From: Apostichopus japonicus
Taxonomy: Eukaryota > Echinodermata > Holothuroidea > Aspidochirotida > Stichopodidae
Assembly: GCF_037975245.1 (NCBI RefSeq)
Contig: NC_092582.1
Coordinates: forward strand, 5,310,001-5,374,000
Reading direction: 5' to 3'
Length of the DNA stretch: 64,000 bases
The notes under the pieces were generated by a model. That model searched no databases and had not been told where the DNA came from. It was given only the letters and a program-made list of their open reading frames with translations. Of this stretch, positions 28,035 to 34,305 are shown one piece after another. The translations under genes were made by a program, and so were the position numbers. How positions within the stretch are numbered: the first letter of the stretch is position 1; each line of letters starts with the position of its first letter.

Positions 28035-31000
28035 ATGGCAAATTGGACTACGATTTTAGGTGAGTTCCAAACCTGGTGTTATCATTGGTCCACTAATGAT
28101 TAATTTCCATAAATTTGCATACATTTTTTTAAATATTTTTTCTCTCATCAAAACGCATTCCCCTGCATTGCTCTCTTGTCGTTGGTTAGCCTATAGTTCC
28201 ATTGGATGATATCATAACCGAAGAATAAAACATACGTCATTGTGAGAAAGCGTTATAGATGAGCATAGAACATCACGTGACTCGACTAAAATTACGCGTA
28301 GGCAATTGAAATTGAACATATAATAGGGTTACATAACACCTTTTTTCTTCTTCTTTCTTAATTAAAAATGGATCGGACATGTGACCATGCATGTATTGAT
28401 TCACGCAAAGTGTGAAATTTACCGTTTTGACAGACTGATTGTAAAGGCTGCGTTACGCATACATTAATTAATTATAACTAATGGTGTCATGCTAGCTCTG
28501 CGCACCCAGTCTTCATGCTTAGTACTTGCTCTAAAAGGCCGCAAAGGTTTTTTTTTTTATAATTTTTTTTTCGGGTGTATACATTTATGAAAGCACAACA
28601 ACATTTCGTACGTGGTGCAGTAATTTTGACAGCCTGTTGTAGAATGGTATTGTACAATAATTTAAATTCCACGTGATTTGATTGTTCCTAAAGTGATTTT
28701 AATTAATTTAACGAGAATGCGCCTTAAACTAAACACTTATCAGAGCTATTCATCCGACGATCAAGTGCGGTCAATCCGAACTGATTGTTAAATCAAACAA
28801 GACAACAAAAGAAAATGTACTTAGAGAAGAATAACAATAGTGGTACCAAACTTAAGATAACAATAGAGATCAGCAGCAATAGACAAAGAACAATTAAAGT
28901 AAACACGTTAGATAACAGTAATTGAAGCGGTTTAAACAAAATCAAGCTCTTTGGGAATTAAATTCATAAAATAAATACTATTATTCACGTGTTTGCTTGA
29001 GAGTGTTAGACCCGTAACCATCCTATACATTACAAACGTTGTCCCCTTCCGCCAAGATGTGTAAATATTAGCTACATTTTAACCACTAAATACACAACCC
29101 CTTGGTCTACAAAAGTACGGTAAATCACTTTAAAAGCAAATACAATATTAAAAACATAATCCCCCATTTTATCAGTTCATATAGCTTTTTGAATATGGAC
29201 ATGTCATAAAGACGTCGCAGGTTCAAAGTCTATATTAGTATCACAACAAAGCCATTCCAACACGACTTTCAACAACTGGGGTCACTAATTGCACTCACAA
29301 AACCACGTTTACACGATGTAAACAAATTGAATCGATGCTATTATCAAGGCCAATACACTGTACTTGTGCCCCGAACGTTACAATTCTTTGGAATCTGTCG
29401 GTACAAAAGGGTTTGATGATTCCACATAGAGTAGCAGGGGCGTAGCGAGCGGGGGGGGGGGGGGTGTGGGGGGTGTCACACCCCCAACAAAAACCCCTTC
29501 GCTACGCCCCTGTAGAGTAGATAGGGTGAACTTCGGTATCAGATCCAGTATCACAGGAAAGGAGTCGAAAAGGTTAAAGGACGTCCGTTTTGCTGTCCAT
29601 TTGTGCACGGTGGTGTCCTTTTCTCGAATTCTATACCGTTATCCCGGCTAGTGTGTGTCGTTAATAAATATTTTCTTATACTAATAAATATAAGATTACA
29701 ATAATGAGCAAATAGAGGCCAGTTCCGATCATATCAACTGAGTAAGAATTTGTCGCCTTCAACAAAGTAAACTTTAACACAGTCATGTTGTGCCAGCGAA
29801 AATTCTATATGAAATTATCAATTCGGCATGTATATACCTATACAACAACTGTCCCGTTTCTTCTACGATCTCACAATTTTTTTGTTTATTAAGCAGTCGA
29901 AAATTTCCATGTGATAAATTCTGCCACGAAACGTCTGTTTCCGGGGATATTTTAGAATCAAAGAAATCAATCGGACGGATCCTTGACAAACAAAATACAC
30001 ATCCCACCCCGCCGGATTTGAAACCCCCCAAAAGTAACCCTTTTTGGAAAAGAAATACCCCTATTCCAGAGTGGTGTAGATTGGGGTGGGGGGGGGGGTT
30101 GTCAGGAGACAAATGGATGGCAAGTAAACAGTTGTGGAGACATTAAGGAGACAAAGGGGCATCATTTTTGTTTTAAACGGATTCTCTACTGGGAGAAGGG
30201 AAGGCATCATGATTGGGGTAGTGCCCTTCTTCCCCTTTCCCTCTCCCCTGACCACTTGTCAATGTCAATGTTGATGGGTACAAGTGAGACTATAAGGGTT
30301 GATTTTTTTCACTTATTGCTTATAAATGGTCATTCCTAGAATGTATTTGAGCCTATCATCTCCAATTTCATGATCTCAGAACATTGACTTATTATACCGT
30401 TAGATAGGCCTATTGCATTATATATATATATATATATATATATATATATGTATACACACATGTTAGCATTTATTTTTGTATTTATATATTTATTTCCATT
30501 TACAGGTTTTCTTGTGTGTGCAACGACTGCGTTTACGCACCCATTATGTGCTTCTCGTCAAAGCTTGCTCACAACATCGTACCTCAATACTTTGATGAAG
30601 ATATCGCGAGACCACTACGGGGTAAGATACATATAAGAACAACACATGATACTGTTAGTGATTTTCATATCATATAATCCCCGATTGTTACCTATAATTC
30701 TGTGTAAGAAACGAAACTAAAAGCAGTGTACTTTAAAAGTTGAAGGTTTACAGTCTCGTTCAAGGTCAAGGCCTCACTAATCGCTGGTCATTGGTAACTT
30801 GTCACACCCACACACCAACAATGGTGCATAATTCGAACAATGCCTCCTGGGGTACTGCAGTGCACCACATCTATACGTGTGGTCCCTCCATGGGACTCAC
30901 CATACGGTGCCGCCACAATTCGGCACACGCAACTACATTTCACAACTAACATGTTACCTCGGCAAGTCCCCATTGATGAACCCGGGTGAAGAGAGGCAAT

Positions 31001-34000: not shown

Positions 34001-34305
34001 AGATAAATAGATAGATAGGTCAGGAGAAAGTTATTAACTGCGTTAGGAAGTGCTGAGGGGGAGAGAGTGGGTAGGTGGTTCTAGATTTACATCATCTTGA
34101 ATTCATTCGTAACTCTTTTGTATTTTATTTTGTATTTTTTTTTAAATCATTAATCAATTCCTTTTCACTCCGGCAGAATGCGACCATGGATTGTGATCGT
34201 GATAATGCAACGAGCAGAACTGAATTTAGCAGTTGCCTTCAGTCTTTAATGGGTGATCTGATACTCAACTGCGAAGTGGATACATCAGGATTATGTATTG
34301 ACTAA
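28035..34305 (+). CDS. Small secreted cysteine-containing protein, helical-cytokine-like gene architecture (156 aa)
   Basis: Five coding exons: 28035-28059, 30506-30621, 31784-31843, 32725-32865 and 34177-34305. All have GT-AG junctions (donors GTGAGT, GTAAGA, GTAAGA, GTAAGG). Intron phases are 1, 0, 0, 0. The product starts MANWTTILGFLVCATTAF, a typical signal peptide, and is secreted by prediction. Cys are at 13 (signal), 23, 62, 91, 120, 134, 146 and 154; sequons at N71, N108, N115 and N124. Exon 4 (LEDALDYLYKWVVKC) and the exon 5 segment (EFSSCLQSLMGDLILNC) look amphipathic-helical. No known family is recognised by sequence. The tiny first exon, five exons and 1-0-0-0 phasing match class I long-chain helical cytokine genes (GH, EPO, IL-6), so a helical cytokine is inferred, not shown. 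An AATAAA lies two bases after the stop codon. Intron 1 carries a 78-bp MITE and intron 4 a 1-kb GATA/GACA array. A paralogue is at 61219-64000 (-). Confidence 0.72.
29435..29512. mobile_element. 78-bp hAT-type miniature element
   Basis: The ends CAGGGGCGTAGCGA and TCGCTACGCCCCTG are perfect complements. The interior is a poly-G block, GTGTCACACCCCC and CAAAAACC. An exact 8-bp target duplication TAGAGTAG flanks it (29427-29434, 29513-29520). It lies in intron 1 of the secreted-protein gene. Confidence 0.9.
30419..30450. repeat. (TA)n microsatellite
   Basis: A short TA run about 55 bp upstream of the exon 2 acceptor of the secreted-protein gene. Confidence 0.9.
30955..31120 (-). repeat. tRNA-derived SINE, second family
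   Basis: On the minus strand a tRNA-like head contains TTAGTTAAGGCAGTGGACTT and the B-box GGTTCGAGCCC. It is followed by CGGGCAAGGCACTTAATCTC and TTGCCTCTCTTCACCCGG, a body I recognise as widespread in invertebrate tRNA-SINEs. It lies in intron 2 of the secreted-protein gene. Confidence 0.65.
32949..34018 (+). repeat. 1.07-kb (GATA)n/(GACA)n microsatellite
   Basis: A short GATA run, then about 42 GACA units (about 32969-33138), then about 220 GATA units to 34018 with only a few single-base slips (33285, 33743, 34005). It occupies intron 4 of the secreted-protein gene, starting about 80 bp after the exon 4 donor and ending about 160 bp before the exon 5 acceptor. Confidence 0.97.

Follow-up and report, generated by a model that had tools for sequence, protein, structure and literature searches.

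Candidate four-helix, class I-type cytokine genes in the sea cucumber Apostichopus japonicus

Introduction

The closest described counterparts of the gene considered here are the vertebrate class I helical cytokines, whose GH-, EPO- and IL-6-type genes are known for five coding exons, a tiny first exon and intron phases 1-0-0-0. The same architecture is present in a gene within a 64,000-nucleotide stretch of the sea cucumber Apostichopus japonicus (assembly GCF_037975245.1, contig NC_092582.1, positions 5,310,001 to 5,374,000, forward strand), which is referred to as the window and whose internal coordinates are used throughout. We find it probable that the genes at this locus form a family of secreted four-helix cytokines of class I type. 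In terms of sequence, similarity to the gp130 group (IL-6, CNTF, LIF, and IL-11) and to G-CSF is undetectable, and the sea cucumber protein is shorter; there is likewise no sequence similarity to growth hormone, prolactin, EPO, or TPO, and the sea cucumber exon 3, which encodes the A-B loop, spans only 20 residues. Leptin differs in having two coding exons, against five in the target gene.

Among invertebrates, Beck and Habicht reportedly found an IL-6-like activity in the sea star Asterias forbesi in 1996; any link between this echinoderm molecule and the genes described here is a guess. Invertebrate proteins proposed to fill the same role include Upd1/2/3 of Drosophila and a putative helical cytokine described by Malagoli et al. 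(2007) (PMC13203501, PMC2248247), arthropod proteins that are likened to the target here by role. Another parallel comes from the helical cytokines that use class II receptors, which share the secreted helical fold predicted for the target and among which IFN-upsilon was likewise identified by features of its gene and not by its sequence (PMC8863823); this group differs in its all-zero intron phases and in its receptors.

Results

The target gene lies on the plus strand and consists of five coding exons of 25, 116, 60, 141, and 129 bp, separated by introns of phases 1-0-0-0 that are all GT-AG (4/4), and it encodes a product of 156 residues. The 25-bp first coding exon (exon 1b, 28035..28059) ends in phase 1, with a TATAAA element 151 bp 5′ of its ATG. 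The remaining three introns follow phase 0 ends: exon 2 (30506..30621) carries predicted helix A after the remainder of the signal peptide, exon 3 (31784..31843) the predicted A-B loop, and exon 4 (32725..32865) predicted helices B and C, whereas exon 5 (34177..34305) encodes predicted helix D and the stop codon TAA, with AATAAA at 34307. A protein search with the product returned one match, the A. japonicus entry "uncharacterized protein isoform X2" (P0001), which is equal at 155 of 156 positions and differs at residue 8. Re-splicing of the exons, the GT-AG borders, and this match verify the five-exon, 156-residue gene with a 25-bp first exon and 1-0-0-0 phases that an earlier note had proposed. 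At the level of sequence, the gene is more than a chance arrangement of reading frames, as seen from its match in the database and from a paralogue in the same window with four colinear exons. Most of intron 4 is occupied by a (GATA/GACA)n microsatellite (32948-34018; 1.07 kb, about 268 copies of the 4-bp unit), and 12 ATTTA motifs (raw count) fall within 1200 bp 3′ of the stop codon.

The paralogue corresponds to the database entry P0002, and a third family member, P0003, is encoded on another contig. P0001 and P0003 both have a hydrophobic N-terminus that carries no charge in residues 1–20 and has small residues at possible cleavage sites. As judged by hydropathy and a cleavage-site check alone, the two proteins are predicted to be small and secreted via an N-terminal signal peptide. 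No membrane anchor is evident in P0001 or P0003, in which no later stretch matches the N-terminus in hydrophobicity. Outside the signal peptide, P0001 has N-glycosylation sequons at residues 71, 108, 115, and 124. Two cysteines, Cys91 at the end of helix B and Cys154 at the C-terminus, occur in all three aligned sequences, whereas Cys120 is aligned in two-sequence alignments only and Cys62, in the A-B loop, only in one gapped two-sequence alignment. The conserved cysteines make disulphides likely, and the proteins are probably both disulphide-bonded and glycosylated.

Structure prediction from the three-sequence alignment gave a four-helical model of P0002 of moderate confidence, with a predicted local distance difference test score (pLDDT) of 61.7 and a predicted template modelling score of 0.62. 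The main helices span residues 19–33, 64–78, 84–97, and 122–137, with short extra helices at 45–48 and 110–114. The P0001 run places helices at residues 32–46, 77–91, 95–106, and 128–144, in addition to one at 5–17 in the signal peptide. In alignment columns, the helices fall at 32–46, 77–92, 96–114, and 143–159 in P0001 and at 32–46, 77–92, 98–114, and 144–159 in P0002; the two runs are not independent because the proteins are homologous. When the P0002 model was compared to known structures with VIA-align, helical cytokines made up 50 of the 50 entries listed, and the nearest predicted shape is that of the long-chain group of IL-6, CNTF, leptin, and growth hormone. A search of a viral structure library gave 81 matches at E ≤ 10, none of them significant; among the 50 that were listed, 2 were viral IL-10 homologues. 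When the single-sequence P0001 model was used instead, 24 chains were aligned and one weak non-cytokine row resulted, an outcome to be expected from a model with a pLDDT of 36.7.

The exon junctions of P0002 lie at residues 34, 53, and 108, such that in the predicted register helix A sits at the end of exon 2, exon 3 encodes mainly loop, helices B and C are both in exon 4, and helix D lies in exon 5. The EPO, GH, and IL-6 genes have the same helix-to-exon layout, and the distribution predicted here fits that of class I cytokine genes.

Sequence searches returned a single Pfam hit, DUF2709, which with an E-value of 0.066 did not reach the cut-off. Using hhalign, the target was compared to 12 human cytokines with 30 shuffles each; the scores for EPO and IL-2 were equalled by 1 of 30 shuffles, and those for the other ten by 4 to 25 of 30. 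An impression that helix A resembles that of CNTF/CLCF1 was not supported by this comparison. Viral contigs searched with the target yielded nothing useful.

The mismatch at residue 8 between the target product and P0001 points to a duplicated first exon at 11804..11828 on the plus strand. This exon 1a, also 25 bp, encodes MANWTTII and the G of a split codon, has the donor gtgagt and the same donor and phase as exon 1b, and lies 179 bp 3′ of a TATAAA element (measured to the ATG). It sits within a 135-bp duplicate of 5′ flank, first exon, and donor (11712..11846, plus strand) that is 83% identical to 27946-28077. Its nine residues, MANWTTIIG, are the exact N-terminus of the annotated isoform X2, whereas exon 1b at 28035 gives MANWTTILG. 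Because exon 1a encodes the database N-terminus exactly, isoform X2 most likely starts at 11804, with exon 1b serving as an alternative start; a simple allele is also possible as the source of the residue-8 difference, but exon 1a supplies the database residue as it stands. The exons described in the earlier note are borne out, but the gene is larger than it had stated, exon 1a having been missed, as had the paralogue at the other end of the window. The database cluster of P0001 has two member sequences, which would fit two isoforms differing by first exon. No convincing further copy of exons 2–5 was found between the two first exons among the tblastn matches listed (best 40 and 50), where scattered single matches had E-values of 0.2 or worse, and no NF-κB consensus was found within 400 bp 5′ of either first exon.

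Single-exon tblastn searches revealed this diverged paralogue at the right end of the window (64000-61219, minus strand), as four more stretches in unchanged exon order, with E-values of 0.006, 0.13, 7e-4, and 4e-4 for exons 2′, 3′, 4′, and 5′, respectively. Exon 2′ (63883..64000, cut by the window end) encodes the end of the signal peptide and helix A and has the donor gtaaga in phase 0. It is followed by exon 3′ (63115..63171; A-B loop, 57 bp, phase 0), exon 4′ (62148..62312; 165 bp in phase 0, encoding helices B and C), and exon 5′ (61219..61356; helix D and stop codon TGA). All splice sites that fall inside the window are GT-AG, and the internal introns have phases 0-0-0, as in the target gene; the reading frame at 64000 would allow a first intron in phase 1, but exon 1′ itself lies beyond the window. 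This paralogue is identical to P0002 over 97% of the query. The P0002 database model begins at an internal methionine and so drops most of the signal peptide, and P0003, with the full start MAGWPTLIA, shows the likely beginning. Identity to P0001 is 35% for P0002 and 39% for P0003. A two-sequence codon comparison over 136 codons (NG86) gave nonsynonymous (dN) and synonymous (dS) distances of 0.64 and 3.55; as dS has reached saturation and exon 4 could be aligned only roughly, the ratio is only a sign of protein-coding constraint. A search with a profile built from P0001, P0003, and the spliced paralogue turned up no additional member in a set of 2577 candidates, having been restricted to proteins that share five-residue words. 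The family in A. japonicus is small: three members were found, two of them at this locus.

Discussion

The earlier note had suggested a diverged four-helix cytokine, and the four-helical P0002 model, the VIA-align listing, and the exon-helix register support this suggestion without proving it. Of the outcomes that the note had named as contrary, a non-bundle fold contrasts with the four-helical fold predicted for P0002 at moderate confidence, and no unrelated family passed the cut-off in the profile searches. The note had also regarded the shared 1-0-0-0 signature as a cytokine trace; the target does match it, but the pattern is weak when taken alone.

Several observations lend the class I reading no support. 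The single-sequence P0001 model has a pLDDT of 36.7 with all residues below 50 and is unusable as a fold, and the P0002 model is the only good one of five, its four sister models scoring between 34.5 and 43.1. Foldseek gave no significant E-value with the paralogue model, only 3 of 8 helical segments were more amphipathic than shuffles at p < 0.05, and no class I cytokine profile was matched in Pfam, NCBIfam, PDB sequences, or hhalign. The 1-0-0-0 pattern is itself not rare, with phase frequencies giving about 3% of five-exon genes. Nor is it universal, as the class I genes IL-3 and IL-21 have all-zero phases (PMC2654155).

The same moderate model, good in one case of five, and the same Foldseek values would also suit a different kind of secreted helical protein, such as a reproductive, antimicrobial, or lipid-binding one, whose cytokine likeness arose by convergence or by AlphaFold fitting a remembered fold. 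Lineage restriction suits fast-evolving gamete or defence proteins as well. However, the VIA-align entries are cytokines throughout rather than generic helical bundles, and both the gene phases and the helix-exon register, to which fold prediction is blind, match those of class I genes. We consider a protein of this other kind unlikely.

A class II-type helical cytokine, similar to interferons or IL-10, would be expected to follow the all-zero intron phases of the class II comparison group (PMC8863823), whereas the first intron of the target is in phase 1. That rule has exceptions, in that IFNL2/3 carry an added phase-1 exon (PMC2654155) and amniote type I interferons are intronless (PMC8863823). 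On balance, we regard an interferon- or IL-10-like protein as improbable. A four-helix ligand of a receptor tyrosine kinase, of the CSF-1, IL-34, or SCF type, is very improbable given its ranks of 41 and 48, the lack of an evident membrane anchor in the family proteins, and the different structure of the CSF-1 gene.

As a class I-type cytokine, the target would have two TATA-box promoters, each driving an almost identical first exon, and its predicted four-helix product would be secreted. By analogy with class I cytokines, the ligand would probably bridge gp130/IL6R-like receptor chains through its helix faces and activate JAK-STAT as part of an immune, tissue-repair, or growth response. Whether the genes are also true homologues, retained in echinoderms, of the vertebrate class I cytokines is a matter on which we stand slightly to the doubtful side of even; a ligand with a 1-0-0-0 gene would then be older than the chordate-echinoderm split, and would fill the missing ligand slot of the IL6R/gp130-like receptors of invertebrate deuterostomes.

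At the level of titles and abstract openings, with preprints and most subscription papers outside its scope, a literature search found no echinoderm helical cytokine gene. Telling against novelty are the sea star IL-6-like molecule reported in 1996, which is counted in PMC9465101, and the report of a putative Drosophila helical cytokine (PMC2248247). A 2026 survey places IL-6 in vertebrates only but finds IL6R-like receptors as far back as molluscs and includes S. purpuratus in its receptor tree (PMC13203501); a 2012 paper describes the sea urchin as being without an apparent cytokine receptor signalling system (PMC3296744). An echinoderm ligand gene, if real, would help to establish the age of the ligand-receptor pair, might reveal which molecule underlay the early finding of an IL-6-like factor in an echinoderm, and would demonstrate that gene architecture can find cytokines missed by sequence. 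The family provides a directly testable factor in A. japonicus. This species is known for gut regeneration and is important in aquaculture.

The two cytokine-like genes are separated by a flavin-containing monooxygenase gene (49891-54439, plus strand), four reading-frame pieces of which match successive parts of the family profile. At the left of the window, a reading frame at 871-1197 (plus strand) matches protein SCAI (Pfam E = 3.6e-22). Local tandem duplications are found at 17752-21405 (about 1.9 kb at 96% identity) and 41902-43986 (0.7 kb at 93%).
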